From assembly GCF_019649055.1 (NCBI RefSeq), contig NW_026570314.1, positions 1-64,000 of the forward strand: DNA of 64,000 bases. The letters are read 5' to 3'. Position 1 is the stretch's first letter. Each line of letters starts with the position of its first letter. The position numbers and the translations under genes were made by a program. This document shows positions 13,030 to 41,239 of the stretch, one piece after another. Source of the stretch: Paramacrobiotus metropolitanus. Taxonomy: Eukaryota > Tardigrada > Eutardigrada > Parachela > Macrobiotidae. The notes beneath the pieces were generated by a model that was given only the letters and a program-made list of their open reading frames with translations, was not told the DNA's origin and ran no database searches.

Positions 13030-13034
13030 ACATA

Positions 13035-14031: not shown

Positions 14032-16509
14032 ATGTCCCAAAGCTTCCCAGAGCCTCCCAACCGCAATAATCGTGGTGAGGCCACAAAGGTTGCAAAGTGT
14101 TTGCGACAGGTGTTAGATTGTGGCGGAATGAGCGATGTTCAGTTCGCGGTGGGACGCCAGTATGGCGCAGTGAGGATCTTTCCAGCTCACAGGTGCTTAC
14201 TCTGCTGCACATGCGATGGCGGCTCTCTGTTCTGATTGATACCTAGGTTACTATTGTGTAGAGTCATCATGGTTGCCCGTAGCGACGTGTTCCACACCAT
14301 GTTCTATGGAAGCCTGCCAGAGAACTGCGCGAATCCCGTTAGTATTCCCGATATTCTTCCTGACGCCTTCGCTAATATGCTCAGGTAATACTACAGATAG
14401 TGTCCGATTGGTGGTGTTGCATGATATGCTGTGAGTACCTGTGTGTATGCCTGTATGGAGCAGTGGACGTACTGGGTACCCATCAAAATGAGCGGATTTT
14501 GTTACTACTGTAGCTATATCTACGCGGATACCGTGGCGAACCTCACCGAGGACAATGTGTTTGAGACACTGAACTGCGCCGATAAAAATGCCTTACCGTC
14601 GTTGGTTCGGAAATGCACCCGCTTTATCCTAAACAAGCTCAACAGGGACACCTGTCAAGAAATACTGGACAAGGTAGGTATCATGGGCAGGTTGCTCCGT
14701 TTCTGCTAGTAAATTTGTGTCTTTCTGTAGGCCGTTAGTTATAAATATACCCCACCCATAGTGGAGGATGCCGACTACAATATCATGGAGATGTGTCTTC
14801 GTTTGATTGATGCATCCGCGGAAGGCGTCTGGCAGTCGGATCAGTTCACAGCCATCGGACAAGAGGCGTTGCAGATTATCCTTCCACGAGAGTCGCTGGC
14901 CGCCGATGAAGTGACCATCTATTCGTCGGTTGAAAAGTAAGGAGCACTGGTTGTCTGCTCCAGGAAGATAATAATAGTAATAATAATAATAATAATGGAA
15001 GCAAAGACAGAATACAAACAGCATATATACAACCAGTAGTTAAAGTGGGCCGCGTACGACACGCTGTACGATTTCAGCCAGCTTCAAGGCGAAAATCGGC
15101 AAGTTGGCAGGTGGGCTGTGAGCGCCTGTAGCCAGAAGAATATGGAAGCTTCAGCCGTCAATCGGCGTGAAATGTTGGGCGCGGCATTGTATCTCGTCCG
15201 CTTCCCGCTGTTAACCGATGCACAACTTATGAATGGCCCCGCCAAGGCACTGACGAGCTTCTGCACTTTGTATCACTAGAAGTATTAGTATTATCCAACA
15301 ACGGTAGCCAACTCCTTCAAGTAAATGCGTTTTCCCGGGCCATCGGTAGACACTAATTCGGATTAATCTAGAAAACATAGCTTTTTTGTTTTGGTTTTCT
15401 GAGTCTCATATCGATGGCTGTATAGAGAAGCAAACCGGTCAAGGTTTAGACAAAAGTTACCCAACCTCCGTAGGAATGTCCAATAGGAAGCCGCCACCAG
15501 CAGACGGTCCCAATGGTTTCGATACAATAAACTTAGTTACTTATTTTGTCGGTGGCGTTGCAAGGAACCGGCAAAGTTATAGAATTTGTCTCAGACAATC
15601 TTGTCTCTCGTGTTAACATTTTGCAAGAAGGCAAATAGTGTTGACAAACAGGTCGAGAGAAAGTAAACAAAGCAGTTTTCGTAAATCCATTTGCTTCTCC
15701 CTCCTTTTCCCGTGAATTATACGATCTTTGTTAACCCCGTTATGAATTTGTTCAGACTGCTGCTTCCATCGGAGCTATTGGACATCTTCCGCTACAAGCA
15801 CGCCGATGTCAAATCGGAGCTGCCGTTCCGCACGGAGGCCCGAAAAAGTTAGCACATTCACGCAGTAAACGAAGACTGCCGAGTAATTGCATAGATTTGT
15901 TTTCAGTGAGTGGTCTTAATTGCAGATGAGTCGCGAACCGAGGGCCTCATCAATTTTACGGTGCCAGATGTCAGAAAGCTGGAGGAAGGCGAAACGTTGA
16001 GCGATCCAGTCGTAATTCGGAAGATGCCTTGGTGAGTCGTTCTACGAGGATAAAACGACGAAATGTGATTAAAGGGCAATCGTACTGCAGGAGAATTCTG
16101 GTTAAGAAGCGCACCAAGACAGGGTCTTCTCAGACTCAGTGGGGCTGTTTTGTAAAATGTGATGTTGAGGTGAATTCGGACTCCTGGAAATGTGAAGCTG
16201 TTGTAGAACTCCGAATTTTACCATGGAAAGCGGAGTTAGCTCCCATTAGTCAAAGTATGTTTTGCTGACCGCTATCAGCACTCTTCAGACAGAATATCCG
16301 GTAAAACGTTCGTTTACATATGCTTGCTTCAGCGACATACGATGAGTTCTGCAAAAATGAAATTGACTGGGGAAATAGGAATTATGGAACTTCGAAACCT
16401 ATAGCATACGAGGTAATGTTTCTCGGACCACAGATTAAAATAGGACCATAGAATAATAAGTTTTGTGCTCAAGGACTTACTGGACCCGACGAAAGGATAC
16501 GTTAATTAA
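14032..16509 (+). CDS. BTB-BACK-MATH protein, copy 1 (damaged)
   Basis: First of seven tandem paralogues. Exons: 14032-14192, 14262-14384, 14514-14673, 14731-14936, 15111-15269, 15756-15847, 15926-16031, 16091-16254, 16333-16412, 16474-16509; about 428 residues. BTB covers exons 1-3 (SDVQFAVG, FHTMFYGSLPE), BACK exons 4-6, MATH exons 7-10 (NFTVPDV, DSWKCEAVVELRILPW, EIDWGN). The usual exon-5 donor has become AAG|GCACTG, and exon 6 is 5 nt shorter than in the other copies. A GT 23 nt downstream (TTT|GTATCA) restores the frame exactly, so I used it. In the last exon an 84-bp perfect palindrome brings a TAA after the residues DPTKGYVN and removes the final MATH strand. The residual ancestral end is at 16550-16611. 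Exon 4 is 21 nt longer than in the sister copies. Function is inferred as a Cullin-3 substrate adaptor. It may be a young pseudogene. Confidence 0.72.
14970..14997. repeat. AAT/ATA microsatellite
   Basis: Short run of ATA/AAT triplets within intron 4 of BTB copy 1. Confidence 0.8.
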
Positions 16510-16549
16510 TTAACGTATCCTTTCGTCGGGTCCAGTAAGTCCTTGAGCA
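16466..16549. repeat. 84-bp perfect palindrome in last exon of BTB copy 1
   Basis: Positions 16466-16507 and 16508-16549 are exact reverse complements, 42 bp each, with no spacer, centred on GTTAATTAATTAAC. The left arm is the intron end plus the first codons of exon 10 (LLDPTKGYV). The right arm is its inverted copy, after which the original exon sequence resumes (GGTTATAACCCTAGTGAC). It therefore arose by inverted duplication of a piece of the gene itself. Confidence 0.9.
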
Positions 16550-18113
16550 GGGTTATAACCCTAGTGACTTCTCGCTTAAACTGCAAGTCAAGCTCACTGC
16601 TGACCTCCCTTTCTGAGTTGATTGAACGCCCTTGGTCAGGACTGGCGTAATCTGACTAACAATATTTTGGCTAATATAAAATATAAGACTGTTATTAAAT
16701 ATAGGTAATGTCTGGGTTTCGACACGCACCGTTGAATAAAAGAAGTATTTCGTTTTTTCAATGGTTCTTGAACCGACGATGTCTTTGGCAAAATCTCCGA
16801 TTAGCTCGAACTTGCGAAGTTGTCTGATTGAGTTAAGTAGCGTTAGATGAAGTATTTTGGAGGCCGATACAGCCTTGAAAATTGAAATAATAAATTCTGT
16901 TTTACTCATTAGTACCGATTGACTTTGGTGTTGGGTATCAGAATTGTAGATTGTGCAACAAGGCACAGAATATTCCGAGTGTACTTAAATGGCAATAGCT
17001 ATACTTATTACGGTAGAGCGGAAGACTAGCTAGTTTGCCATTACAAGACCAGAGCCAACTGTTCACTTGGCATTAAGCCACCCTGTGAACCTTTTATATA
17101 AAGATATTAACCCAGAAATTCTCCGCAAACAAAACAGTCAAAACACTAACATTTCCATTTTCTATCAGCAGTACGTACAAATTTACAATACTTGATACAC
17201 AGCATTAGGCCATTAGCACAGTAGTTAGTACACCGGCCAAGGTGCGGGGAGCGGATCGTGTGTGATATGTTCAAAGAGCTGCCGCCGACACGATTTATAA
17301 CCTCAAGATGTCACCTGCGGGGCGATGACGAACCTTCGATTCTGAGTAGCTTACCGCCCAAAGGTGCAGTAGCTGGGTAGCATTCGTGATTTGCGTGGAC
17401 ACGCCGTTTCGGGGTGGTTGGAAGTCAGATGCCTATGAGATGCCGAGAAGTCAGCGTAGTCCGGCCCGTAACGACACGGGCTTTTCCGGTCACTTTTTAA
17501 AAAGCGCGCGCTCGCAAGATGATGTTTCATGTACATCTACACTAACGGAAAACCAATCTCTACGAATAGAAAAGCGCATGCTCCATAAAAAAGTGTAAAG
17601 TGCTCTGTAAATTGTGGGGCGATGCCGATGGCGGTAGCCGGGTAGCGTATGCGCAGTTTCATTTTGCCGCATTGCGAAATTCCTGTAGTCAGTGATGTGC
17701 GAAGCAACGTCTCTGGCGGCTGCCACTCCGCCGCAAATCACGAATTCTGCTGACCACAGAAACGGCAGTCACAATACTCTGTGGTTGCACTAAACGCGTG
17801 CAATCTGTTCTGCAGTTTGACTTCGTTCGCATCCGTTGAGAATGTTCAAATTCAAATTATGTGCTTACGACGAAATCTTATATCTATATCTCGGAACTTT
17901 GAATCACCTTTCCCATTTTGGATTCTGAACGTGGATTGGTCAGGTTGCGACTAACACTAGCGATCCCTGTTTCTGCGCTATTTCGTTAAATTTGACTGGT
18001 ATTCAGATTCTGACCTGCGCCGCCTGCAAAGTGTTATCCGTAGTACTGGCTAACTCTCCAGTGTCTGAAAATCCCGCGCCATCCTCGAACTACTCGTATA
18101 CAATCACGGCAGG
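16510..18113. other. Intergenic between BTB copies 1 and 2
   Basis: It begins with the stranded end of copy 1's last exon (16550-16611, reading NPSDFSLKLQV then TADLPF and a stop). The segment 17690-17760 resembles 13680-13750, which points to duplication of upstream DNA together with the gene. Nothing else is recognised. Confidence 0.5.
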
Positions 18114-20277
18114 ATGGCGAAGATTGGCGATTGTTTCAAGCCGTTGCTGGCCTGTAGGAAAATCAGTGATGTTCAGTTCGCGGTGGGACGTGATTATGGC
18201 ATAGCAAAAATCTTTCCAGCGCACAGGTGAGGACTGACTGACTGAGTGACTGAGGATTGGTTAAATACATTACTGCACGCTTTCCAGCACATTCATCCAT
18301 AGTTTGCCAATACGTTTCCTCCGCCTCGATTCCGTTTTACAGCCATTTAGAATTATTGTCAGTGTATTTATGTAGATTGGTCCTTAGTGTTCGCAGCGTT
18401 GTTTTCGAAACCATGTTCTACGGAAGTCTCCCGGATAAATGTACGGGTCCCATCGACATCCCGGACATTCTTCCGGACGCCTTCGCCAACATGCTGAGGT
18501 TCTTCTGACGTGCAAATTTTGCTGCTTTTGCATCCAGTACTGTACATGACCGCACAATTTGCGCAGCTTCCTCTACACCGATAAGGTGACGAATTTCACT
18601 CAGGACAACGTCTTCGACACGTTAAAATGCGCTGACAAGTACGATTTACCGTTGCTGGTGACCATGTGCACGGACTTCGTCCTGGACACGATCGACGTTC
18701 ACAACTGCTTGGATAGTCTGGACAGCGTAGGTTATCTCAGTAGGTTATGCTGCATTGAGCTGTCTCATATTTATTGAGAATCGTTGATCCCTAGGCTCTG
18801 CACTTTGGAGAGGCCGCGCCGAGCATCCTGGAGAAGTGTTTGTGTTTGATTGATGAATCAGTAATTATCTGGCGGTCGGAAAAGTTCCGCACGATCGGGG
18901 AGAAAGCTTTACGAGCCATTCTGCAACGGGATACTTTGACAGCCAACGAACATAGCATCTGTTCGTCTGTTAACGAGTAAATCAATTATTTGAGCAGTAA
19001 GACACTGCAACGCTTGTCTTATCTTTGACTTTTATTATACGGTTTTGAAGGTGGTCTGCAAACATGTGCGCGCAGAGGAACATGGACGCTACCCCCGCCA
19101 ATCGACGTGAAGTATTGGGCCAGGCGCTGTATCTCATTCGATTTCCGCTCATGACCGAAGCTCAGCTGTTAGATGGTCCCGTTAAGGTGCGTTATATGCA
19201 TCGATTTAGGGCCACTTTGTTAATTAGTTTTACACCCCTGGCCAGGGACTATCTACAATGTATGTAGCTAGGGACCTTTGGAGCGATCGATAAGTCTAGT
19301 ACACGGTGAACTACGAAACCTTTAAAGTGCAATTGAAACTAAATGTATTTGGTGAAATTTTTTGCTTTATTCAGAGTGGTCTGTTGCTACAGTCGGAGGC
19401 ACTGGACATATATCTCCATAAACATGCCACTACCAAGCCGGAGCTCTTGTTCCGAACGGATCCCCGACAAAGTTAGCGCTCTCACGTGTTTTTTGAAAAT
19501 TGTAGCCCTTGCCCAGCGAAGCTATGAATGTACCAAGGTCCATTTGTTCGTCCATAAATTGACTATAATAATGTTGGCGTCTGTTCCAGATGTACGCGCT
19601 GAGGGTGTTATTCATTATACTATTCCGGATTTGAGGGAACTACGAGACCAGCATGCGACCAGCGATTTTATAACAGTGAGAAAGCTGCTTTGGTAGGAGG
19701 CTTGCTCTGGAATTACCAATCGATAGTTGTTACTTGTACTTTGAAGACAATAGCAATTGACAGGGTTTCCTTTTAGGGGTATCGGCGTTGCACAAAAAAT
19801 GCACGGTGCTCTGGGCTTCTACCTACTATGTACTGGATATTATGCGAGGTTGGATTCCTGGACGTGCCATGTTAATGCAGAGTTGCGACTGCTGCCTTGG
19901 AAAACGGAAACTGAGCCAATTACGAAACGTATGCATACTGATGTTGATCATCCGCTACCACAGCACGATTGTCATACTCGCAAAAATATTCTTGATTCAT
20001 CTAGCATTGTCGCGGCTGTTTGACAAGAAATCATTGGCCTGGGGATACAGGAAATTTATCTCTATGGAGGTTAGTGTGTTGCACGGGAAACGCATAATTG
20101 CAGTTTTAAGCATAACTGCAGTTTCATCTAGAGGCTACAGTACACATTGTTCACCAAATGATAAGGGTTTGCTTCAAGGAATTACTGGATCCGGATAACG
20201 GCTACGTCAATCCTAGTGACTTCTCCTTGAGACTGGAGATCAAAGTGACTGCTGACCTTCCTACTGGAATCGAATGA
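18114..20277 (+). CDS. BTB-BACK-MATH protein, copy 2
   Basis: Exons: 18114-18226, 18376-18498, 18567-18726, 18795-18976, 19051-19186, 19375-19471, 19590-19692, 19777-19928, 20005-20069, 20179-20277; 409 residues with an unbroken frame. BTB: SDVQFAVGRDYG, ETMFYGSLPDK, LYTDKVTNFTQDNVFDTL. BACK: ILEKCLCLIDES, QRDTLTANEH, LYLIRFPLM, LDIYLHKH. MATH: IHYTIPDLRELR, DSWTCHVNAELRLLPW, SRLFDKK, ISMEELLDP. The ancestral start of this family (ATG-TCT-GAA-AAT in copy 4) is GTG here, and the sequence after it is out of frame. The ATG at 18114 (MAKIGDCFK) is the first in-frame start, so the protein lacks about 16 N-terminal residues but keeps BTB. An AATAAA lies about 430 bp past the stop (20709). The family role is inferred as a ubiquitin-ligase adaptor. 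Confidence 0.8.
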
Positions 20278-22582: not shown

Positions 22583-24799
22583 ATGTCTTTTCGATTTACT
22601 TTCATCCTTTCGTATTTCGGGAATAAACTCGTCAGATCTCTGAGATTCTGGCTGGTTAAAATCAATGCCTTACGTGTCTTTGGGACGGCTCTGGGAGGTT
22701 CTCTTCGAACCGTGTTCCATGCGATCCGAAGGTTCGCAGTGCCTCCGAATCGGATAAGGTCCCGAACCTGTTTCCCAACATGGAACGCGCGAAGTCGCGC
22801 CGAGGTGGCCAAGCTTGGCGACTGTGCAAAGAAACTGCTGTTCTGTGAAGACATGAGCGATGTGCAGTTCGCCGTCGGACGTGATTATGGCGCCGTGAAG
22901 ATCTTTCCAGCTCACAAGTAAGCTTACAGTTTTCATCTTCGATTTTGTATACCGTATACGAGTATTCTTTCATCCATCAATGACCATCAAATCCGATGAG
23001 CCTTCGTTTCCGTACCCTGCTTTGTTATCCAGGCTCTTAATGGGCCTCCGCAGCGCTGTATTCCACGTAATGTTCTATGGAAGCTTGCCCGATAAGTGCT
23101 CAGCTCCCATTGACATTCCCGACGCTCATCCCGACGCCTTTGCGAACATGCTAAGGTACGAGCTACCGCGTTTCGTGGTCGTTGCAGCGTATATCTGATA
23201 ACACAGAATTTTACAGTTACATCTACACCGACATGGTGACGAATCTCACCCACGACAACGTCTTCGACACGTTGAAGTGTGCTGACAAGTACGACTTGCC
23301 GTTGCTGGTAGCGATGTGCACCAACGTCGTCCTGGACACGCTCAACCTCAACAACTGCCTGCAAATTCTGGATAATGTAGGTCTTCTAGTTTGCTACCAT
23401 GAACTGCCTGAGTTTATAAAAAATGCAATTTGTAGGCGGTGCTGTATGCAGGTCCGGCGCCGAAGATCCTGGAGAAGTGCTTGGCTTTGATTGATCAATC
23501 ACCGTTGACTATTTGGCAGTCGGATCAGTTTTGTGAAATCGGGCAAGAGGCTTTACAAGCCATTCTCAAACGGGATACGTTGACGGCCAACGAAGATACC
23601 ATTTGTTCAGCGGTTGGCAGGTAGCGGTTCAGCGGTCTTTGCATTCCTTTTTTAAAGCGAGTGCGTGCTATTTATGGCTTTTATCGGTTTTGCAACAGCC
23701 GTTTTCTGGCAGGTGGGCTACGAAAATGTGCACGCTAAGGAACATGGACGCAACATTCGCTAATCGGCGTGAAGCATTGGGCCAGGCGTTTTTTCTCATC
23801 CGGTTCCCGTTGTTGACGGATGCACAGCTGCTGGATGAGCCCGTGAAGGTACGGTCTTCTCTCCGATTGATAAGTTGTTCCTCAGCAAGCTTTGAATAAC
23901 GCGACGACAAAAAACTGAGCCGCCGGATTACATCGGAAACTGGCTAGCTAAATTGCTGCGTTTTATGCAGAGCGGTTTATTGCTGTTATCGGAAGTACTG
24001 GACATCAGCCTCTGTAAGCAGGGCACCATTAAACCACAACTGCCGTTCTGTGCGGAACCCCGACGAAGTTAGCACATTGAGAGCGGTAACTGACAACCGC
24101 ATTCGTATTTTATGCATGTTTTGGCATTTCCTAGATGTTCTCGCTGAGGGTGTCATTAACTTTACAATTCCGGATGTGAGGGAGCTGCAGACGAAGCCTG
24201 CGTACAGCAGTCCAGTAACGATCAGAAAGCTGCTGTGGTAAGGGATTCGCTGATGCAAAATTAACTGTGCCAACTTTGAACACAGTTGATATATCCAAAA
24301 GGTTGATGGTAAGACGTAGGTCGTTCTGCAGGAGAATCGTGATTGTGAAGGAAACTGTCGGGTCATCTGCTGCTCTCGGCTTCTTCCTTTATTGTTCTGG
24401 CTTTCCGAAATCGACCTCCTGGACGTGCAAAGTTAATGCGGAGCTGCGCCTGCTTCCGTGGGTAGCGGCAATTGCACCAATTGAACACAGTAAGCACGTT
24501 TAACTATACGATTATTGCTGTATCCTCAGAAAATCGGTGGTACATATTTGCGAGGTTGTTATGAAATTTTGCAGAGATGTCCCAGTTGTTTGACGAGAAT
24601 TCATGTAGCTGGGGATGTTCCGAATACATTTCAATGGAGGTGAGGGCTTTTGCGGTAATTCTTCAGCTACATAATTGTTGATAAATGTGTGTATACGCAG
24701 GATTTGCTGGATCCATCGAACGGTTATGTCGATCCTGGTGACTTCTCCTTGAAACTGCAGGTCTATGTCAATGCGGATCTCCCTGTAGGGATCGAATGA
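22583..24799 (+). CDS. BTB-BACK-MATH protein, copy 3
   Basis: Exons: 22583-22917, 23033-23155, 23217-23376, 23436-23620, 23713-23848, 23971-24067, 24135-24237, 24332-24489, 24575-24639, 24701-24799; 486 residues if the upstream in-frame ATG at 22583 is used. The expected family ATG (22780, MERAKSRRG) is one nucleotide out of frame with the BTB part, so the N-terminus has drifted. The frame stays open 270 bp upstream and would add a basic, partly hydrophobic N-terminal extension. BTB (SDVQFAVGRDYGAVKIF, FHVMFYGSLPDK, YIYTDMVTNLTHDNVF), BACK (KILEKCLALIDQS, FLIRFPLLTDAQLL, LDISLCKQ) and MATH (VINFTIPDV, TSWTCKVNAELRLLPW, SCSWGCSEYISMEDLLDP) are all complete. The first splice gives AAG (Lys) where the sister copies have AGG or AGA (Arg). 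Confidence 0.82.
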
Positions 24800-25856: not shown

Positions 25857-27973
25857 ATGTCTGAAAATCCAACAACGACTCACTTCGTAAATTCCGTCAC
25901 GATCGCCAAAATCGGTGATTGTATCAAGCCCTTGTTGGGCTGCAGGGAAACGAGCGATGTTCAGTTCAAGGTGGGACGTGATTATGGCGCAACGAAGTTA
26001 TTCCTAGCTCACAGGTGAGATCCTCGGATGCGGAGCTGTTAACCTTGTATTCATATTTTACAGAATGTTTTGTCGATTTATGTCTGATTACCTTGAGGAT
26101 TATAGTCTGTATCTGTATATAGGGTTATTATGAATGCCCGGAGCGCCGTGTTCCATAAAATGTTCTATGGAAGCTTACCGCAGAACTCCTCAGCTCCCAT
26201 CGACATTCCCGACATTCATCATGAGGCCTTCGCCAACATGCTTACGTATGGCTGCGCTTCTAGCAAATTGTCTTCCATGTATTGCTAAAACATCTTAATT
26301 TTTGCAGCTACATCTACACCGACGCGGTGACGAATTTCACCCATGACAACGTCTTCGATACGTTACGGTGCGCTGATAAGTACGATCTGCCGTTGCTGGT
26401 GGCAATGTGCACTGACTTCGTCCTGGACGCACTTAACGCCGGCAACTGCCTGGATATCTTGGACAAAGTAGGGCTTCTCGGATATCCACGGCGTACGGCG
26501 TATGCCGGACTCAAATGTGTTGCGTTTCTAAAAATAATGTGTTTTTTAGGCGGTGCACTATGCAAGTGTTGCGCCCATTATCTTGGAAAAGTGCTTGTGC
26601 CTGATTGATGAATCAGCGATAAGTATCTGGTACTCGGAGAATTTCTCTGACATTGGTCAAGAGGCTCTCCAAGTCATTCTCCAGCGGGACACTTTGACAG
26701 CCAACGAAATCACCATTTGTTTTTCTGTTAACAAGTAAACCCGGTTTAACTGCCGTTTTCTTACTAACACGGGAGATCTCTGAAATTTATCGTTTCTCTA
26801 CAGGTGGGCTGTGAAAATGTGCATGCAACAAAATATGGCCGATTCCACCAGCAATCGGCGCCCAGTTTTGGGTCAGGCGTTGCAACTCCTCCGGTTTCCG
26901 CTTCTGTCCCATGCTCAATTACTGAAGGGGCCAGTCAAGGTACAGTACATTTTTTGCACCCATTTGTCTGTCTTTTATATCAAGCCATATGTAAAGAAAT
27001 GTAAGCATTTAACCCTTTTAGTGAGTGTAAATTTGCGATGGCCGGCAGGCGCAGCGATATGAGTGCAGGCAGGCCGAGTAAAAGAGAGCAAGCTCACGGA
27101 ACACTCAAACGGGAAAGCGAAGTTCTGTGTTTTTTTTTATTTAGTGGGGACTATTGCTGAAATAAGAGGCACGGGACATCCGCCTGTGTAAGCTTGGCTC
27201 TACCAAGGCGCAGATGCCTTACCCAACGGATCCCCGACAAAGTTAGTGCGCTAATCCGTTTAGCGAAAATAACATCCACAGATTTAGTACTGCTTAATAA
27301 TTCCAGATGTACGAGCTGAGGGTATCATTAGTTATATGATTCCCGATGCCAGACAGTTGCAAGAGAAGGCTACAGGTAGTGAACCCATAACAGTCCGAAA
27401 ACTGCTTTGGTAAGGCGTCAACATACCGAAAACAGGGACCAGCGGAACATTATTGCCACTGACAGCCGTCGTTTTGTAGGGGCATTCGCGTCAGGAAAGA
27501 GACGCAGGGCGAGTCTGCTTTTCTTAGCTTCCGCCTGTGCTGTTCGGGCTATCCGAAATCGGCTTCCTGGGAGTAACGGACTGATGCAGACATATGCCTG
27601 CTGCCATGGAAAACGGAAACTACACCGATTAAAAGAAGTATGAGGGTTTTGTGTATTTATCTGCTGTTTCAGATAAACCATAACTATAACCTTTGTACAA
27701 GTTTGTACACTTTGTAGACTTCTCCGAGATTTTTGGCGAGAATGCAGTTGCCTATGGTGGGAAATATATTTCTATGAAGGTAAGGGTTGATGTGCACAAA
27801 TCTCTATTTCATTTGCCTTCTTGGTAATTTCGTACCCGACTACCCATTATTCACGGAAACTACTTGCTCTCCAGAAATTGCTGGACCCGAAGAAAGGCTA
27901 CGTCAACCCTTCTGACTTCTCCGTCAGACTGCAAGTTAAAGTCACTGCTGACCTTCCGGAAGGAATCGCTTGA
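25857..27973 (+). pseudogene. BTB-BACK-MATH, copy 4, with two premature stops
   Basis: Exons: 25857-26014, 26123-26245, 26308-26467, 26550-26734, 26804-26939, 27145-27241, 27307-27409, 27480-27637, 27718-27779, 27875-27973. All splice sites and phases are kept, but exon 6 contains TAA at 27163-27165 (after WGLLLK, where sister copies read GLLLQSE) and exon 8 contains TAA at 27574-27576 just after the MATH signature SW. BTB and most of BACK remain open: SDVQFKVGRDYG, FHKMFYGSLPQN, YIYTDAVTNFTHDNVFDTL, ILEKCLCLIDES, QRDTLTANE. A truncated BTB-BACK protein of about 255 residues could still be made. Two independent nonsense codons with little other damage suggest recent loss of the MATH half. Confidence 0.78.
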
Positions 27974-29808: not shown

Positions 29809-32800
29809 ATGTCTCAAAATTCCGCACAATCCACGGCTACGGAAAGTTGCGCCGGAGTGGCGAAGGTTGCCGACCGTGTAAAGGACATCTTACTCTGCGA
29901 AGACATGAGCGACATTCGATTCGCGGTGGGACGCGATCACGGCGCGGTAAAGATCTTTCCAGCTCACAGGTGAGCGTTAGATTTGTGTTAGCAGTTGATG
30001 GGTCCTCGCTCATGAGCCATGATGGCCAAATTTGCTCAGTTTATTTCTGAATTTGTGATTAATTCTTTCTGCAGGGTCATAATTGGTCTGCGCAGCGTTG
30101 TGTTCCATACGATGTTCTATGGAAGTCTTCCCGATATGTGCACAGATCTCCTGGATATTCCTGATATTCATCCCGAGGCCTTCGCTAACATGCTTAGGTA
30201 AGTTTGCAACGCAGCATTTCGTTCAATTTACAGCGAATACTGTACATGACATTGCACCGTATTGTGCAGTTACATCTACACCGACGCGGTGACGAATTTT
30301 ACCCAGGACAACGTATTCGACACATTGAAATGCGCTGACAAATACGACTTACCGTTGCTGCTGACTATGTGCACCGACTTTGTCTTGGGCACGCTCAACT
30401 TAAACAACTGCCTTCACGTGCTAGACAACGCAAGTTTTCCTCGCTAACCGCTAACCGAGCTGTAACATGTTGATTGTGGAATTGTTTTTGCTAGGCTGTG
30501 CACTATGCTGGTGTCGCGCCGAGTATCTTGGAGAAATGTTTGTGCCTGATTGATGAGTCACCAAAATCTATCTGGCAGTCGGATCAGTTCTGTGCAATCG
30601 GCCAAGAGGCTTTGCGAACGATTCTAAAACGGGATACTTTGACTGCCAACGAACATACTATTTGTTCAGCGGTCGACAAGTGAGCGGCACATCAACCACC
30701 CTTTGTCAGCTTCTGTTCCCTTTCTGCTCGTTAGCTCGTATTTATGGGTATTTCACCGTAGGTGGGCTGAGATAACCTGCATGCGAAGGGATATGGACGG
30801 TACCTCTGCCAATCGGCGCGAAGTTTTAGGTGAAGTTTTGTTTCTCGTCGGCTTTCCACTTTTAAGCGATGGACAGCTTCTGGATGGGCCTGTAAAGGTA
30901 CTGGTATGGCTTGTATTAATCTTTTAAACGCCCAGCAAATAGGCGGACAGGACCACAATAAATGGCATTAACCCGCTGACGCCCATTGGCGTTAGGACGC
31001 AACATAGTACTCGAAATGTTTTTCTCAGCGACTTATAGCAGTTATTCGGTATTTCATAGCGTAATTAGCATAACGAGACTTTACGGCTGCGATAAAAAAA
31101 TAAACCAAACTTGTCTCCTAAGTCACCCAAGAACCACGAGCTCGCGAAAATCGCTCATTTTGATCTTTTTGAGCTCCGGGATGTCTTGGTAACTAACTAA
31201 TTAGCCAATGAGTCAATTAATCTGTAATAATTCAGTAATGTAAAACCAATAAGGCTTTATTAAAAAATGTCCAGCATGGGTCCTTAAAATAAAACTGTAA
31301 AAGACCACAGTCCATCAGAAACGGGTGTTGCGTTCAGACACCATTGGGCGTGTATGGTCCTAAAATGCGGGCGGGAGCATATTCGACACACCTATTATAT
31401 ACTTGAACCGGATAAGGCCTCCTCTCCTTTCGGGCTTGCTACATGCTCCACGTGGTTCCGGTTACTGGAACCCTTCCAAATCGGTTTAGGTGAACGGCAC
31501 GGTGGTCGGCTATCGCCTCAAACGAAACTAAAGGACGGGTATTCGTTTTAGGTGTCGGACAACGAAACATTCAAGATAACCGATCATGGTGATAATGTTT
31601 TCCATTCAGTAGCAGTCCATTGGGAACCCAGTTTTTTGGGCTTTTTAATTTTGCTGACCACTGGTCAGTTAATTGACCACTCCAGTACCCTTGTTTTGAA
31701 GTGCTGTTTATGTACTATACGATGAACGCTTTTGTTCCGACCAGCTGCTGTTCACCTAATTACTACAGATTTAAACGTTTTTATGATTAGGACCGTCTAC
31801 GCCCAATGGTGTTGTCAAACATCCCCATCATTGCCGGTGACTGTGACCTATGGTCAGCACGAGCACACAAAAATTTCTTTTCTTAATTGAATTTTTTCAG
31901 TGGAAAATCCAAATTTTCAAGAAGAAATTCGTACTCCTTCGGGTAGTGAGCGTTGGAGGGTTAAGGTTTGATATATGAAAATTTGTTTTACATAGACTGG
32001 TTTGCTATTGCAATCGGAGTTACTGGACATCTACCACTATAAGCATGCCGCCATCAAACCGCCGTTGCCCTTCCGTAAGGAACCACGACAAAGTAAGCGA
32101 TCATTTGTTTGTTGAAAATTGTAATCATACCTAAAGGATTAGACACTGTTTATTGGTTCCTCCAGATGTACGCGGAGAGTGTGTGATCAACTATACTGTT
32201 CCGGACGTGAGAAAACTGCAGGCGATTTTTACATTGAGCAATCCCGTAACAGCCAGGAAGCTGTTCTGGTGAGGGTGTCACTCTTGTGAAAGTCGAAATC
32301 ATTAATCAGTCTTGATGATTTTTACGAAATTACGCGCATCGTTTTACAGGCATATACACGTTGGAAAAGAAACTGAAGCTAATGTTGGCTTCTACCTGGT
32401 GTGTTCCAGCTATCCGAAATCGGCTTCTTGGGCTTGCGAGGTTAATGCAGAGCTGCGTCTGCTGCCGTGGAACACGGAAACTGCACCAATTAAGAAACGT
32501 ACTTCTGTGCTTGTTTATGCCGTAATGTTAATCTAATACAAGCCGATGTATTTTGTAGAGATATCCCACTTATTTGGTAAGAATGGAGCTTGCTGGGGTT
32601 ATGGATTCGGGAATTTTATCTCTATGGAGGTGAAGTTTTGAACGGAAAATCCTTGGTCTGATCTCTCATGGGTCCCGCACGTTTTGTACTTTTAGAATTT
32701 ACTGGATCCGACGAAAGGTTACATCGATCCCAGTGACTTCTCGCTGAAACTGCAAATTCAAGTGACTGTATCACCCTTCCGGCTTGAAACGAATGAATGC

Positions 32801-32818
32801 AGTGAAACGCGTACCTAA
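29809..32818 (+). CDS. BTB-BACK-MATH protein, copy 5
   Basis: Exons: 29809-29969, 30074-30196, 30270-30429, 30495-30679, 30762-30897, 31996-32092, 32166-32268, 32350-32498, 32559-32629, 32696-32818; 435 residues, start ATG-TCT-CAA-AAT shared with copy 7. BTB: SDIRFAVGRDHG, FHTMFYGSLPDM, YIYTDAVTNFTQDNVFDTLK. BACK: ILEKCLCLIDES, KRDTLTANEH, LDIYHYKH. MATH: INYTVPDVRKL, SASWACEVNAELRLLPW, ISHLFGKNGACWGYGFGNF, ISMENLLDP. Intron 3 has a GC donor (AAC|GCAAGT), a valid GC-AG intron. Intron 5 is 1.1 kb against 0.1-0.5 kb in sister copies and may hold a transposon remnant. A one-base shift near the end replaces the usual TADLPxGIE-stop with an eight-residue longer tail ending at TAA 32816. Confidence 0.83.
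30898..31995. other. Expanded intron 5 of BTB copy 5
   Basis: This intron is several times longer than its counterparts. It contains three related strings around ACGCCCAATGGTG or its near-complement (about 30977, 31343 and 31799), which suggests an inserted and decayed element. No coding frame is supported. Confidence 0.4.
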
Positions 32819-34427
32819 AAAGAAATATGCCTTGTGGAAAAGTTTCTTGATCCATCGCACATCATCGAATTGCGCATTGTAATTCTTGTCTGTTTTTTGG
32901 CCAGTTTTCTTTCAGTTCTTGTTGTCAGATATTCGCGAACCAGCTGGTAGCTCAAAAGCTGGTTAGATCTCCTGTTTTACCTAGATTTCCCATATGGAAG
33001 AGTACTTTATACCCTGCATGAATATCAATCCTTATGTTTCTTATCGGTACGATGCCGTCCTGACTTGCGCTACAAACCGTTATGCACATAGTAACATAGT
33101 TAAACATACCACCGTTTCTTTGATAATACTCGTACATTTGCCTTTCAGCCGATAGAGCAATGCAGCGCGAATTCTTTAGTTAGCAGCCCCTAGACCCCAT
33201 AGTATATACATGTAACTGGGTTAAGAACTCACAACTTGATCGAAGTGGATGGAAATTGTAAGTTTTGTTAGAGTTCGGATGACTGGTTATGGTGCCAGTC
33301 CGTATGGGGGATATCCCATTCGCGGTGGTAATAACTATGACGCTCCCAAAGTGTGCCTACATTCCGCCGACATGGTCCGATCTGTGGCGCATTAATGCGC
33401 AGCTACCTGTTTACGTTATTTAAGCGGTTCGTGCTTGTTAAGAAGTCACTCAAGTGAAAAACGCTCCCACCATAATATTACTAAACCAAATAATATTACC
33501 ATAATAGTACGGTCGGACTGCGCACATACAAAGAGCGGTTGCGCAAAACGGAAATGGCAGTTGCATTTCGACTTCCGGTGCAAGGGCGGTCGATCCTTGT
33601 CTTGTCAGCAGCGCTCACTACCCCGGGTAAGCGCTCGCCGAGGTTGCAGATCACAAGGTATTAACAGCATGATAATAATTATTATTGATAAACTGTCAAA
33701 CTGGCAGTGGCAGAGTGGCAGGTACAATCTGACTAAATGAGGAGGCTACGGTCTATGTTAAAAAGCCAGCGAACAGCCTTTTTTGCCCGCTGAGGCTGGT
33801 TGATCAATTCAGCCTCTCTGTTGTGACTATAAATAGACTGAAGACAGCGCATTCCGGTGCTGCTAAAAAGCGCAAGCGGAGTGCTGCCTTGCTGTATCGA
33901 TCGATCGCGCACATGTGGTGTGTGAGTGGGTAAATCCGCTCGCATTCACTTACACACGTATGAGTGTGGCTGTCTGTGCGCGTACTAGCTGTACAAACCG
34001 GTTTTCGCTGTCTTCGCTACAACGCATACCCTAAACCCGTAGCTTCCTTTCTTGCTCGCATTGTATTCGCTATTCGGCTACTGTGTTCCTGAACAACAGC
34101 ACCCACCGCGAAGAGGCGACTACATGCGTAGCTCGCTTACAAATTTCTGGCAAAAAGTAAAAACCCAAACAAATCCTTTCGGCTGTCGAGTTTTTATTAA
34201 AAATCCCTTTGTTGCGTGAATCTCCGGATCCTACTTTTATAGGGATATAATATTATTACTGTTAGTGGAGATATTACTAATACGATTCCATTTACATAAT
34301 ACGCTGTGCTTCGATTGCTTTTGCGCGCTGTCGTTCGCAACTTGTTGGAGGGGATAATTAACAGGCAATTGCATAATCTTGGCAACAGGTATCGGTTCGA
34401 CCACGATTATCTCTTCAGTCTGCAGTC
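32819..34427. other. Intergenic between BTB copies 5 and 6
   Basis: No gene, RNA or mobile element recognised in about 1.6 kb. Confidence 0.5.
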
Positions 34428-37251
34428 ATGGCGCAGAGCTCCAGACTCTCCTCCAACCTAGGAAATCGCGGGGGTATGGGGAAGATTGCTGACTGTATGA
34501 AGCAGGTGTTAGTTCGTGGAGAGATGAGCGACGTTCAGTTCGCGGTGGGACGGGATTATGGAGCACCACGGATTTTTTCAGCTCACAGGTAGCTTTCTCA
34601 TTACATGTGGCTTGCTGGCTGCTGCTTCGTTCTATGGTCTCGCTGGCGATTATTGCACACTTTTGCTTAATATTTGCTTGTTATACTAACCGTGTAACTG
34701 CGCAGAATCATCATGAGTGCCCGGAGCGATGTATTCTACACCATGTTCTACGGAAGCGTCCCCGAGAACTGTGCAGCTCCTATTGATATTTCGGACATTC
34801 TTCCCGACGCATTCGCAAATGTGCTAAGGTATGTGTCTATGCTGAAGTGGAGGGAGAGCAGTCGGCACTTCTTTTCCCAGTTTTTAAGGTCGGATTTGAA
34901 GTCGCTCGCGGAAGACCTAATAAAAATTGACAGCCAGGGAGCGCCGTAGATTTTTATTCTTTATTTATTTATTATTCTTTATTGATTTTTTATTATCGAA
35001 CTGTTTTTCAGTTGTGTTTTACATACTTTAAAGTTTTCGAATTTGTTTCAAAGCTTTTCTGGCTTCTTCGATTTGTTAGGTAATAAAATATCTTTTAAAA
35101 AAATGTTCATAGAACTAATCATCCCGGCAGACTTCCAGATTTATTTTCCCTCTGTCCGGCGATTTGTGCATTGCGCTGTGTGTAAGCTACACGTCTTAAT
35201 TTTAATCGTAGCTATATTTACACGGATGCCGTGCCGAACCTCAGCGACGACAACGTCTTCCCGACGCTAAACAGCGCCGATAAGTATGACTTACCTTTGC
35301 TGGTGGAGAAGTGTGTCGAATTTATTCTGAATAAGCTCAACCTCGATAACTGCCTGGAAATCCTGGAGAAGGTTGGTTCTCGGTCCCAGTTTAGTATGTA
35401 ATTGGGGCTCGAACAAACAGTTGTCAATGACAGTTATGGCATCTTCTTTTGCAGGCCGTTCAGCATACGTGCGCGTCGCCGGACATCATGGAGCGGTGTT
35501 TGCAGTTGGTTGATGGGTCAGCGGAAACTATCTGGCAGTCTGATCGTTTCTCCAGCATCAGACCTGAGACGCTGCTGATCGTTCTTCAACGGGAGACTTT
35601 GGCCGCCGATGAAGCCACCATCTATGAATCGATAGAAAAGTAGGGCTTTCAAATTCGGCAATATGTTGCCACTTCTGCTTTCCGAAAAGTTTCTTGTTTT
35701 CCGCAACGGCAAATCACAGTTTTCGTTCCGCAATTCGGACGTGGTTTTTCTACGTGAATATGATGATAATGTTGAAATCGTATTATTATCAGAAGCCTCG
35801 TACACGCCTACTGCGCATACTCTGCAGCTGCTGCATTTTTGCGAAGTAATTTATGGGTAACCTTTAGTCGCCGTTTTTTTCTTGGTAGTTGGGCTGCGGA
35901 GGCGTGCGAGGAAAAGAAAATCGACGCTTCTGCGGTAAATCGACGTGAAATTTTGGGACCGGCACTGTATCTTGTTCGATTCCCGCTGATGGCCGATGCG
36001 CAGTTGATGGATGGGCCCGCTAAGGTAACAGAAATCTGCGGAAATCGTTGGCAAACGACTTGAGCGGTGACCGATTTAAATGATGGCCTGTATTTTTACA
36101 TTCGAAAATAGAAATATGAAGGATAAATTTTGTTTTAGACCGGCTTGCTGTTGCAGTCTGAGTTATGGGACATCTTCCGCTGTAAGCATGCCGCCGTCAA
36201 ACCGGCGCTGCAGTTTCGTAGGGAGGCTCGACAAAGTGCGTATAGTTGTACACGGTTGGTAATAAAACTCAGATCGTTCTCTACCAGACATTTTTGTGCG
36301 TTTTGACAGACGATATGCGGCCTGAGGGCGTTATCAGTATTACGGTTCCGGACGTTAGGAAGCTGGAGGAGGATCGAACGATGAGCGATCCCATTACGGT
36401 CCGGAAACTGGCTTGGTGAGTGCTCGAATTGGTTGGACATAGGTCACCAGTGAAGCTATGATTGCGAATTTCAAAATCGCGCAAACGGTGGTACTCAAGT
36501 AGCTTTATTAGACTCATAGCTTCTCGCGTACGTTTAACTCAAAGACTCTTTTAAAACTTATAATTACAAGCCGGTTAGAAGCAGCAGGCTCACGTTCTCA
36601 TTAAGTGCGTTTGGTAGACATTTTGTTATAGGAGAATCCATGTAATGAAGCGTAAGACGACTGGCAGGGGATCTTTCGGCCTGGCGTATTTTCTGCATTG
36701 TGCTGGCGTGCCCGGCTCGGATTCCTGGAGGTGTCAGGCCAAAGCGGAGCTGCGCTTGCTACCATGGAATGCGGAAACTCCACCGATTAAAAGACGTATG
36801 TATGGGGTGGTTAGTTCTGTAGCAATTAATAACAGGGGACGATAAGCAAGGAACCCAATAACTGCTTACAAATAGGCAGAATATTTGCTTACTTTTCTTT
36901 AGATTAACCTGGCTTTAAAATTAAACAACCAAGACAAATATACTGCGCAGCTTATCCTTTTATTTCTGCCCTGTGTACTTGTGGCTGTACTCTCACGAAA
37001 GTATCTGTGTTGGCTTCAGCGATCTCCCATATGTTCTCGAAGAAAGAAAATGACTGGGGATTCACAAATTTTATCTACATGGAGGTGAGAATATTTTTGT
37101 TATACAATCCTGCATTGTGCAGTCGTGTTAACTATATTTCTTCGGGCCTAAGGATTTGATGGACCCGGTGCAAGGATATTTTAATCCCAGTGACTTCTCG
37201 TTGAAACTGCAAGTTCACCTGGCCGCAGAACCTCCTCAGGAAACTGAATAA
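34428..37251 (+). CDS. BTB-BACK-MATH protein, copy 6
   Basis: Exons: 34428-34588, 34706-34828, 35212-35371, 35455-35639, 35889-36024, 36139-36235, 36310-36415, 36632-36795, 37020-37084, 37153-37251; 431 residues, all splice sites GT-AG. BTB: SDVQFAVGRDYG, FYTMFYGSVPEN, YIYTDAVPNLSDDNVF. BACK: IMERCLQLVDGS, QRETLAADE, ALYLVRFPLMADAQLMDGP, LWDIFRCKH. MATH: ISITVPDVRKLE, DSWRCQAKAELRLLPW, ISHMFSKKENDWGFTNFIYME, DLMDP. Its exon 9 is the clearest MATH signature in the cluster. It is closest to copy 1 in exon lengths (106 and 164 nt for exons 7 and 8) and in residues such as the ERS-like linker, so the two probably form a sub-branch. Intact. Confidence 0.86.
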
Positions 37252-37819
37252 CTGTGTTGCTGAAATTTTGCCGATTTTTCTGCTAATTTACCGATTATTT
37301 TATCCACTGATAATCGTTAATTCTAGCATTGAAGCTTCTCTATGTCGTAGGGAAGTCCTTTCCATGTATCCATGGTCAGATGTGCAGCAAGAAAAAGAAA
37401 ATCGAGTTATTTTTATACGTGTACCGCTACGATTAAAACGACAAAGGTCGATATGTGATAGATCTGGTAAATGACCATCTGCGCAACTGCAGCGCAATGT
37501 GTCCATACATAAGAATGCACAAAACGGGTGTATGTGATTTCCTGACGTGTGAGAGACGCAAATACGAATGGAAAGACCATCAATCAGGGTCGTTTACGGT
37601 TGAGGATGCTGTACCTTCCAGAATGAAAAAATTAGTATGTTTACAGCAGTTCAGTTCAAACAGCAACGCTTATTATCGTGCCCTGTCCCGGTTGGCGAGA
37701 GTTCTCGGTCTTCGTCCGTTAACCTGCTTATCACACAGTGGTGCAGCATATAATTGTGCAGCATTCCTGACGGGACTGTTTTAAGCTCTCTGATTGAAAA
37801 GAAATTTAGCAGTTATGTA
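37252..37819. other. Intergenic, no feature recognised
   Basis: About 570 bp after copy 6 with no recognisable coding or repeat structure. Confidence 0.5.
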
Positions 37820-38089
37820 CTATCTTGTAGGGACGCATCGTACAGTTAAAGTCTCTAGCGCTCTGCCCACATTCCCAGAAGCATTAATAATAACATGCTC
37901 GCGCAAATACAGTATGTGATGCATGTATCCCATATTTCCCAGGCGCATTAGGTAGTCGTCCGCGTTCGGCTCTTCCATCGCATAGAGGATCGAACATAGT
38001 TCCACTAACCAGGGCAGTTCAAATTTCCCAGCGCAGTACAGCGTGGGAAAGACAGTGGCCGAGCCATGTGCTCCACCTTGTTCGTCAAT
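37820..38089 (-). pseudogene. Diverged antisense BTB fragment
   Basis: A 90-codon open frame on the minus strand starts IDEQGGAHGSATVFPTLYCA and continues GKFELPWLVELCSIL. It aligns with exon 3 of the neighbouring genes, which read DNVFDTLKCADKYDLPLLVTMCTDFVL. The shared pattern is VF-x-TL-x-CA-x-K-x-x-LP-x-LV-x-x-C. The rest (YAMEEPNADDYLMRLGNMGYMHHILYLREHV) is not recognisable in the sister genes. It has no start codon and no other exons that I can find. It is an inverted, much older relic of the family or an exon of an unrelated BTB gene. Confidence 0.5.
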
Positions 38090-39131
38090 TACTGAAAAAC
38101 CGTGTTACTGCACAATTTCAAGCTGATAACTGAAGGAACAGATCCGTTGGGCGTTGATTATTTTATGACTGCAACAACAGATGGCACTGTTACAAGAATA
38201 TTTTCGACGGGGCACTTTTCTACTGGTCGTTTGCAGCAACACGAAACTGTCTCTGAACGTATCCACAAAAGAACGTCGCATGCCGGATACCGTTTCCCTT
38301 GATCCATCAAAAATGTTAATTGCGTTACGCCCGCAATTACGAATTAACGAGTAGCTATTTTACACTGGACATAAGGCAGCAGCTGCATGCCAAATTGTTA
38401 TCTTTGGTAGTGCCTCAAAGTTATCCTCATATGCCGAAAAACTAATAACGGTCAGCTTAGTCAGCTGATGTGATTCAAAAATTTTCGCAACATTTCCTAT
38501 CTGCGCTAATGCATTTTGGCTCTACCCAAGCGAGTTGACATACTCGGTATCATCTTGTTAGAGAAGAGAAATGCACTGCTGCAGCCGTTCAGTGACACTG
38601 CACGGAAGTGACAAAAACCATTGTACTTTTTGTGAGTGGATCTTAAAAAAGGTTTCCGGTAGCATCACGTATCAACTATCGGCGCACGCCACAAACACTT
38701 CTTTGCTGCAGAATAAGTATAAAATGTCACATTACAATCACATACTGGAACTCTTAGGTCGGCTGTTGTTGGACGTTGTTGTTTGACTCTTAAAACGTTG
38801 TGACCGGTTTTACGATAAAGCAACGATGCTTAAAAGTATGAGCTTGTGCAAACATTGTACGGGTACCGAATTATGCGTACCATGTATGCGCTCATCCTAA
38901 AAGCGCTCTCTTATCTCGCAATCACACAATAATTCAGATAAGAATCATTAGATATGCATGCCTTGTCATTTCATTAGCCACGAATGAGTCCGCGAACAGT
39001 TCACTTAGTACTTGAACCCGTCTACTGCATAGAATTGTTTTCTTAAACGTTTCGAAAAATTAATATTATTAATTAGTACAGCTGCTTATCTGGGATTTTT
39101 GAATTGCTCTGGAAATTGAATCCTTCAAGTT
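38090..39131. other. Intergenic upstream of BTB copy 7
   Basis: No feature recognised in about 1 kb. Confidence 0.5.
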
Positions 39132-41239
39132 ATGTCTCAAAATCTCACGCAATCTTCGGGAGGGGAAAATCACCCCGTGGTGGCGAAAATTGGCGACTGT
39201 GTGAAGCACCTATTAGACAGTGGCGACATGAGCGATGTCCAGTTCGCGGTGGGACGGGATCAAGGCATTGTGAAGATTTTTTCGGCTCACAGGTACCTGT
39301 GAACGGTGATGGCTCAATTCGTGACTTTAATTTATACAGTCTGCATCCATTACAATCGAACCTGCTATTACAATTGTAAAACTCATTGTGCAGGATCATA
39401 CTGGGTGCTCGCAGCGCTGTGTTTCACAATATGTTTTATGGAAGCCTGCCAGAGAACTGCACAAATCCCATAAACATTCCTGATGTTCACCCCGACGCAT
39501 TTGCTAACATACTCAGGTATGGTACATCGTTACAGTGTTTCGTTGCTACTGCAGTGAATATAATACGGAAATTCTGCAGTTACATCTACACCGATGCGGT
39601 GAAGTCTTTAAACCTAGACAACCTCTTTGGCACACTGGGCTGCGCGGATAAGTACGACTTACCACTGTTGGTCGTCATGTGCACTGACTTCATCCTTGCT
39701 GAGCTTAGCATCGACAACTGCCTGGATGTTTTGGACAGTGTACGTGTTTTCGGGCTTTACATCCATGCTGCCCGAGCAGATCTTAACCGGCTTAGTTGTG
39801 TAGGCGGTTCACTGTGCAGTTGCTGCGCCGAGTATCCTGGAGAAGTGTTTGTGTCTGATTGATGAATCCGCAGAAGCTATTTGGGTATCGGAAAAATTCT
39901 GTGCGATTGGACAGGAGGCGCTATGCGCCATTCTCCAGCGGGATACGTTGACCGCCAATGAAGACATCATCTGCTTGGCTGTTAACGAGTAAAGCAGTTG
40001 TGGCAGTTCCTGTTCCACTACTCTAGAAAAGGTACTCCTTAAAGCTGTTACTTTTATCAATCGTTTTCTGTCAGGTGGGCTGTCAACATGTGTGCGCGAA
40101 GGGATATCGACGCTACGTCCGCCAATCGCCGTGAAGTATTGGGCCGGGCGTTGTTTCTCATCCGGTTTCCGCTCTTGACCGATGCTCAACTGCTAGATGG
40201 ACCAGCTGATGTACGCTTTTTGCAACTATCATAATCTCTTTTCGATAGTCTTAAAGGTCAATAGTAATGTCTTCTTTATTTGAAATTAGTGGCCTTCTTA
40301 TTCCTGATAAATTGTAATACGAGTCTAATTTCCGTGAGCGATGCCTTTTTTATATGCACATTGTGAAATACATGTCAAATGTGTATGATATCTGATGCTC
40401 CTTTCAGAGCGGTTTGCTGCTGCAATCAGAAGGATGGGACATCTACCGCTACAAGCACGCTACAACCAAACCTAGGCTGTCGTTCTGCACGGAGCCTCGA
40501 CAAAGTTAGTGCGTTCATGGGCGTTACCGCCGTTTTCGAGCTTTATCTTATTGTTGTATTTCAAGACGTGCGTGCTGAGGGTGTCATTAACTATACGATA
40601 CCGGATATAAGGGAGCTCAGGAAAGCGGCTTTGTACAGTGATCCCGTAAACGTCAGAAAGCTGCTTTGGTGAGGTGTAGACGTAACGGAAATTGAAACTA
40701 GAAAGGTGGCTGGAGGTTGACTCCTCAGCGGCTCGTCGCATTGCAGGAACATTGCGGTGAACAAAAACATTGACCGTGAAGTTCCGGCTCTGGGCTTCTA
40801 CCTTCAGTGTGATGGCTATGCAGGATCCGATTCTTGGGCGTGTCAAGTTGCTGCCGAACTTTGTCTGCTGCCATGGAAACCGGAAACCCCTCCAGTTAAA
40901 AAACGTATGGTTTTTTATGCAGATACAGTATTGTGTTTTTCTTCCTACGGTCCATGATAATCAGTTGTACCGTAAGTACTAAGTTGTTGCGTATCCGATT
41001 TTGCAGAGGTGTCCAAGTTGTTCAACAAGAACGCGCATAGCAAGGGATCGTCGAAATACATCTCGATGGAGGTGTGAGAGTTGTGTTCAGGGAAAATCCT
41101 TGAAGTACACAGAACTGACATATGTCGTATGTCTTTTTAGGAATTGCTTGATCCGGCGAAAGGCTACATCAATCCAACTGACTTCTCTTTGAGGTTACAA
41201 ATTCAAATGATTGCTGATTTGCCGACTGGATTCAAGTGA
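39132..41239 (+). CDS. BTB-BACK-MATH protein, copy 7
   Basis: Exons: 39132-39292, 39394-39516, 39580-39739, 39804-39988, 40075-40210, 40408-40504, 40566-40668, 40747-40904, 41007-41071, 41141-41239; 428 residues, all GT-AG. Approximate domains: BTB 35-150 (SDVQFAVGRDQG, FHNMFYGSLPEN, YIYTDAVKSLNLDNLFGTL), BACK 150-290 (ILEKCLCLIDES, QRDTLTANED, LFLIRFPLLTDAQLLDGP, WDIYRYKH), MATH 290-425 (INYTIPDIRELR, SDSWACQVAAELCLLPW, VSKLFNKN, ISMEELLDP, INPTDFSLRLQI). This is the best template for the family. In known relatives BTB and BACK bind Cullin-3 and dimerise, while MATH recognises degradation targets, so a cytosolic or nuclear E3-ligase adaptor is inferred. The MATH domain is C-terminal here, unlike SPOP and the nematode BATH proteins. 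Confidence 0.87.

Follow-up and report, generated by a model that had tools for sequence, protein, structure and literature searches.

A tardigrade family of BTB-BACK-MATH genes probably assembled from BTBD-type and USP7 exons

Large adaptor repertoires that combine a BTB with a MATH domain are found in nematodes and in plants, and the MATH-BTB families of both evolve adaptively. A MATH domain is also part of the deubiquitinase USP7, where it brings in proteins for deubiquitylation. In the passages of a BTB survey that give such counts, C. elegans has 46 MATH-BTB proteins among 178 BTB proteins, and metazoan genomes hold four to seven proteins of the BTB-BACK-PHR type (PMC1257465), to which BTBD1, BTBD2, BTBD3 and BTBD6 belong. 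Here we describe a gene family of the tardigrade Paramacrobiotus metropolitanus in which a MATH domain follows BTB and BACK. The window (the whole stretch of DNA analysed, 64,000 nucleotides with a GC content of 44.1%) covers positions 1 to 64,000 of the forward strand of contig NW_026570314.1, here C94:1-64000, and its plus strand carries seven homologous copies of one exon set at 14032-41239. The genome searched was the assembly of 169.8 Mb (169,799,020 bp) in 533 contigs. The 22-mer of the SL1 spliced leader had no exact match, which argues against a typical nematode, and three lipocalin matches, sought as a sign of a tardigrade marker protein, were uninformative. Our reading, to which we would give a probability of roughly 0.8, is that the family consists of exon-shuffled chimeric ubiquitin-ligase adaptors, with a BTB-BACK half of the BTBD1/2/3/6 type, a MATH domain taken from USP7 and a diversified peptide pocket.

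The original prediction was of seven genes in tandem, all with the order BTB-BACK-MATH and all with a ten-exon layout conserved in phase. Self-comparison of the plus-strand frames recovered the seven copies in that interval, with the stop codon of copy 7 at 41239. The copy 7 model has ten exons, GT-AG borders at 9/9 introns and intron phases 2,2,0,2,0,1,2,1,0; the other copies were modelled by transfer from it, with the intron phases imposed. On these terms a good in-phase candidate was found for 10/10 exons in copies 2, 5 and 6 and for 9/10 in copy 3, where exon 1 was set by hand, and the five copies 2, 3, 5, 6 and 7 look intact and open. Copies 1 and 4 are broken as judged from their models, and the common layout does not extend to exon 6 of copy 1. 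In all five intact spliced proteins BTB, BACK and MATH_2 scored above the Pfam gathering cut-off, in the order BTB-BACK-MATH, and in three of them MATH (PF00917) did so as well. Exons 7-10 do, as proposed, score as MATH, and what was claimed for all seven genes is too strong, two of them being broken; by exon matches the same order is found at 41 loci in the genome. At E <= 1 none of the five proteins matched PHR (PF08005), in keeping with the prediction that MATH takes its place. That model does work in this genome, with seven exon-level matches on four other contigs. Nor did Pfam at E <= 1 find the protease or C-terminal Ubl domains of USP7 in any of the five.

Comparison with solved structures separates the two halves. 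The best solved relative of the copy 7 BTB is BTBD6 (2vkp, E 4.4e-17), with SPOP next. For the copy 7 MATH, USP7 accounted for 11 of the 13 PDB sequences at E <= 1, the best with an E-value of 1.4e-14 over 137 residues, and the two that were not USP7 matched weakly (E 0.034 and 0.038). SPOP was not among these 13 sequences, and when the full-length copy 7 protein was searched the BTB of SPOP matched while its MATH reached just 4.1 bits. By these alignments the MATH of the family is of the USP7 type and not of the SPOP type. When the Pfam MATH model was run on the genome contigs it gave no match at E <= 0.001, probably because the coding sequence of the domain is spread across four exons, and protein queries were used instead.

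The gene structure points in the same direction and allows the origin of each half to be examined. Complete ten-exon models were obtained at 27 of the 41 loci, and after the broken copy 1 was dropped 26 members were analysed. The USP7 gene of this genome (one was detected) is on C62, where it was located by two exon matches to PF12436, with its MATH exons upstream. According to a scripted comparison, a phase-1 intron precedes the MATH of this gene and introns of phases 2, 1 and 0 then interrupt it at the residues that carry family introns 7-9, so that copy 7 exons 7-10 (40566-41239, plus strand), which encode its USP7-type MATH/TRAF domain, agree with it in intron places and phases. The last MATH exon of USP7 has 95 nt, and reading through its donor gives TGG TAA and a length of 99 nt. 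Exon 10 has exactly 99 nt in 19 of the 26 members, and the position of the family stop codon would thus be explained by read-through of the USP7 splice donor. At the protein level all 26 MATH domains are nearer to the USP7 of their own genome (41-62% identity) than to its human counterpart (24-36%), these two domains being 47% identical to each other, and the MATH of copy 6 is the least changed, with 62% identity to its own USP7.

The other half can be traced to a different kind of gene. A BTB-BACK-PHR gene on C66 has introns at the same places and in the same phases as introns 1-5 of the family by script, although for intron 1 this covers the acceptor side only, as exon 1 of the C66 gene was not identified. 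Copy 7 exons 1-6 (39132-40504, plus strand) encode BTB, BACK and the BTBD-type linker, and share introns 1-5 with the BTB-BACK-PHR genes to that extent. Exon 6 of the C66 gene opens with the same linker and then continues without an intron towards PHR, and a BTBD1/2-like gene on C183 gives the same reading of introns and linker when judged by eye. The family exon 6 stops just past the linker and is 97 nt long in 26/26 members. The BTBD1/2/3/6 character foreseen for the BTB-BACK half is thereby borne out, both by BTBD6 as the best solved relative and by introns 1-5. The family shares with BTBD1, BTBD2, BTBD3 and BTBD6 the BTB, the BACK, the linker behind it and these introns; it differs from them in carrying a USP7-type MATH where they carry PHR, and in its number of at least 41 loci against the four to seven proteins counted per metazoan genome in the survey passages cited above (PMC1257465).

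Because the introns match both USP7 and the BTB-BACK-PHR genes, we read the family as an exon-shuffled chimera. The simplest account of these borders would be one fusion, in which BTBD exons 1-6 were cut at a new donor and joined to the MATH exons of USP7. An ancestor of the BTBD1/2/3/6 type with BTB, BACK and PHR would have lost PHR, with its exon 6 shortened at a new donor past the linker; four exons encoding the USP7 TRAF/MATH domain would have become exons 7-10, and read-through of the last donor would have supplied an immediate stop. If so, the way in which a gene family arose by exon shuffling looks traceable here, with relatives of both parents in the genome, surviving introns and a stop codon that is explained.

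The architecture had been described as stable and as having expanded locally. The layout is indeed stable, but the family is genome-wide and the seven-copy cluster is a small part of it. With the copy 6 MATH as query there are at least 63 exon 8-type matches on at least 21 contigs, USP7 and the seven window copies included. Among the matches listed, 42 of the 63 have a BTB/BACK match on the same strand within 4 kb upstream, though in dense clusters such a match may belong to a neighbouring gene, as with a remnant on C103. The other 21 show no such match among those listed, but complete models exist for at least three of them (window copies 2 and 6, C103a+728), so part of these gaps is only apparent. 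Both halves are found in order at the 41 loci, 24 of which match all ten exons. Seven of the loci are in the window, 15 are in C94:64001-164000, a stretch not picked for its genes, and 19 come from 16 pieces of 12 contigs that were chosen for having family matches. The count includes a locus at C94:93416 that is without exons 4-7. Fragments with a single half occur as well, one with BTB only (C94:106891-108200) and one with MATH only (C94:146611-146792).

These data also bear on the possibility of two neighbouring genes, a BTB-BACK gene made of exons 1-6 and a MATH-only gene made of exons 7-10, with no fusion protein. The join of exon 6 to exon 7 is predicted from DNA, USP7 itself has the MATH exons without BTB, the single-half fragments and the C103 remnant exist, and copy 6 has a methionine near the start of exon 7. 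That methionine is, however, the only one within the first 12 residues of exon 7 among the 26 members. Exon 6 is stop-free to its phase-1 donor in all 26 and exon 7 opens in phase 1 (the phases having been imposed), intron 6 is short at 57-118 nt, and both halves keep their order at 41 loci. Among the 63 exon-8 matches listed there is none with a BTB/BACK match downstream only. The distances between members in one half correlate with those in the other (Mantel r 0.44, reached in 0/5000 permutations), as shared duplication would also make them. The constant 97-nt exon 6, the rarity of an exon 7 methionine, the short intron 6 and the Mantel correlation together argue strongly, but not finally, for exons 1-10 being one transcript, and we consider two separate genes very improbable.

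With one transcript preferred, the family can be placed among the described BTB proteins. Membership of the SPOP-type MATH-BTB proteins was considered and rejected: MATH follows BTB in 5/5 proteins and matches USP7, not SPOP. With SPOP, nematode BATH and plant BPM the family has in common the combination of MATH and BTB and a large lineage expansion, as in C. elegans; the order is reversed, the MATH is of another type, and the introns point to a separate origin by exon shuffling. The suggestion that this is a reordered set resembling the MATH-BTB adaptors consequently gives way to a traceable chimera, since the USP7-type MATH comes with the exon borders of the genome's own USP7. No paper on BTB-BACK-MATH proteins, or on BTB joined with a USP7-type MATH, was found among the open-access papers searched. 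In their available parts, two BTB surveys (PMC1257465; PMC4033408, the latter with nine BTB subfamilies) do not include a BTB-BACK-MATH class, and the part of a third source that treats the BTB family is one table row in which MATH is not mentioned (PMC5531438).

BTB proteins with a TRAF-like domain are nevertheless known already. TRAF_BTBD17 (PF23651) is a Pfam family whose name goes with a BTB-BACK-TRAF-like architecture, so BTB-BACK followed by a TRAF-like domain at the C-terminus is not unique, and the statement that no named family has this order was too strong in the broad sense, though this model is without a match here. It could then be asked if we are looking at a known animal family of the BTBD17 type that expanded here. 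The two share the placing of a TRAF-like domain at the C-terminus of a BTB protein. The TRAF_BTBD17 profile, by contrast, has no match in the five family proteins at E <= 1, and none in the genome either, where the controls were silent too and absence is thus not shown. Both USP7 and MATH_2 are matched by the MATH, which also has the introns of USP7. That agreement in introns mostly refutes the BTBD17 explanation, which we regard as the least probable of those discussed here.

If the family is the chimera we propose, its peptide groove would be inherited from USP7. The USP7/HAUSP TRAF domain is the best solved relative of the family MATH, which has the four exons and phases of the genome's own USP7 gene and, in copy 6, keeps the residues Asp164 and Trp165; it differs in its place, which is N-terminal in USP7 and C-terminal behind BTB-BACK here, in that no protease or Ubl domains were found with it, and in the variability of most of its peptide-contact positions. 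Ten USP7 positions are named as peptide contacts in the part of the source that covers them (100, 102, 104, 118, 162, 164, 165, 166, 168 and 169; PMC13142314). Over the 26 members their entropy averages 2.52 bits, and that of all 133 scored positions 1.47 bits (permutation p 0.0001); 8 of the 10 exceed the mean. The USP7 of this genome and human USP7 have the same residue at 9 of the 10 contacts but at just 54 of the 123 other positions. Selection on the family is purifying. BTB-BACK has a median omega of 0.231 and MATH one of 0.335, and no value exceeds 1 among 325 pairs of the 26 members, where dS is high (median about 1.1) and saturated in 5 MATH pairs.

Several observations weigh against the reading of a diversified family of chimeric adaptors and should be kept in view. 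The family is described here from genomic DNA. The automatic models, on which phases were imposed in the transfer, called even the broken copy 1 complete, and a complete model is for that reason not proof of a working gene. The C103 remnant is scrambled, with exon 8, exon 1 and exons 9-10 in that order and no BTB-BACK exons 2-6. The MATH tree of 29 rows, in which copy 6 groups with the USP7 pair (98/86) and SPOP is on a very long branch, is poorly resolved, with 7 of 26 inner branches well supported and the bootstrap unsettled. Given that no pair has an omega above 1, positive selection is without direct proof. Contacts 118 and 166 are conserved, with entropies below the mean, and a stricter test restricted to positions where the two USP7 proteins agree gives a less extreme p of 0.024, the family keeping the residue in 30% of cases at 9 contacts against 55% at 54 other positions. 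The contact tests are uncorrected for surface exposure, and several contacts sit in a stretch with indels where the alignment is less sure, with 100-104 flanking the indels. Asp164 and Trp165 are described as essential for P/A/ExxS binding in USP7 in the relevant part of the source (PMC6203733). Both are kept in 2 of the 26 members (copy 6 and C251+717), with Trp165 in 17 and Asp164 in 5, and binding of the USP7 motif is therefore unlikely for most of the family.

A further point of this kind concerns the BTB half. Its hydrophobic-x-E motif, which we take to mark the position of the Cul3-binding site, is present as such in 13 of the 26 members; 10 have hydrophobic-x-D at that position, with Asp in the place of Glu, which makes 23 of 26 with either form, and in 3 the motif is lost. 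Such changes would suit proteins that are chimeric in the same way yet act mainly without Cullin-3, as dimeric scaffolds or decoys to which USP7 clients are bound, or as inhibitors occupying USP7 motifs, and BTB-BACK-PHR proteins do have roles outside ubiquitin ligases. The BTB-BACK arrangement, the mostly conserved motif position and the purifying selection on BTB-BACK speak the other way. This explanation shares its origin with the one we prefer and does not exclude it; we hold it to be unlikely, though clearly less so than two separate genes or a BTBD17-type family.

The Cullin-3 adaptor reading, which we favour, is plausible by analogy. The BTB domain would dimerise and recruit Cullin-3, and BACK would position the C-terminal MATH for target binding, as in other BTB-BACK adaptors according to the corresponding part of the survey (PMC1257465). 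The MATH groove, built like the P/A/ExxS groove of USP7, could grip short target peptides and so lead to their ubiquitylation. Copies in which the pocket is kept, copy 6 among them, may vie with USP7 for the same clients and bring about the opposite result, while in most copies the pocket residues are changed and other motifs are probably recognised. In its fullest form this would mean that the substrate reader of a deubiquitinase was grafted onto a ligase adaptor, that members like copy 6 send P/A/ExxS clients of USP7 to Cullin-3-dependent degradation, and that the dozens of others form a repertoire of pockets on one scaffold. We put this forward as a tentative proposal that is somewhat more likely to be wrong than right. 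The fusion could then have made a protein-rescuing part into one that tags proteins for destruction, and a clear prediction that can be tested is opposing control of shared targets by USP7 and by the family. If true, it would add a further route to a large repertoire of adaptors with BTB and MATH, besides those taken by nematodes and plants.

MATH and PHR are not the only domains found behind this type of BTB-BACK. A gene on C11 (C11:1321300-1323900, open reading frame 676-1845, minus strand) has BTB-BACK in a single open frame, and at residues 53-289 its identity to copy 7 is 50%. Its C-terminal domain matched no Pfam family and nothing significant in the PDB (best E 1.4). Outside the cluster, the window holds a relic at 5299-5787 on the minus strand, recognised by sequence match, in which an exon-6-type linker is followed by an in-frame stop and then by a C-terminal domain of the C11 type, which is neither MATH nor PHR. 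Linker and domain of this relic are 36% identical to the C11 gene over 159 residues at 5341-5787 (minus strand), with the stop after the linker. Counting PHR, the USP7-type MATH and the C11-type tail, no fewer than three different tails follow the BTB-BACK-linker cassette in this genome, which suggests that the cassette repeatedly swaps its target domain.

Other BTB families have probably expanded too. C182 and C237 carry arrays of BTB matches with 39-48% identity to copy 7, which amount to another local BTB expansion, and C237 also has one BTB-BACK-MATH gene apart from its array. Clustered single-frame BTB matches are found on C8, C59, C70, C101, C132 and C216, and the genome has at least 150 BTB matches, 150 of 1036 candidates having been scored.

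The copies of the cluster, all on the plus strand, differ in their state. Copy 2 (18114-20277) is modelled with ten exons and 409 amino acids and copy 3 (22583-24799) with ten exons, a hand-set exon 1 and an uncertain start codon; for both, BTB-BACK-MATH is given by gene model and Pfam. Copy 4 (25857-27973) is broken in its model by two TAA stops, one in frame at 27574-27576 in exon 8 and the other at the start of exon 6. The ten-exon model of copy 5 (29809-32818) encodes 435 amino acids; its exon 3 is followed by a GC donor, and its C-terminal tail is divergent. Copy 6 (34428-37251), the one with the MATH nearest to its own USP7 and with the pocket pair kept in the alignment, has ten exons and 431 amino acids, and copy 7 (39132-41239), supported by model, Pfam and PDB search, has ten exons and 428. 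Between copies 6 and 7 a reversed relic resembling the BTB exon 3 is found at 37949-38053 on the minus strand (E 1e-04). The isolated exon 1 inside the C103 remnant (about 418145-418303) has 98% protein identity to exon 1 of window copy 5 and looks like a recent transposition of a single exon, judging by the match.

Copy 1 (14032-16616) is degraded and probably a pseudogene: the donor of exon 5 is GC, exon 6 lacks the conserved in-phase acceptor, and exon 10 is disrupted by a palindrome. A repeat search placed this perfect palindrome at 16466-16549, with arms of 42+42 nt and zero spacer; it holds copy 1 exon 10 sequence, part of which it repeats as an inverted duplicate, and it could be real or an artefact of the assembly. 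The cluster adjoins a retrotransposon on the minus strand of the window (42459-45272), in which the frame 44208-45272 matches reverse transcriptase (PF00078, 1.9e-09). A second frame, 42459-43160, had no Pfam match and resembles a tyrosine recombinase by eye. Directly upstream of copy 1, at 13014-13517 on the plus strand, is an open frame with long runs of threonine followed by a C-terminus that contains cysteine and tryptophan.

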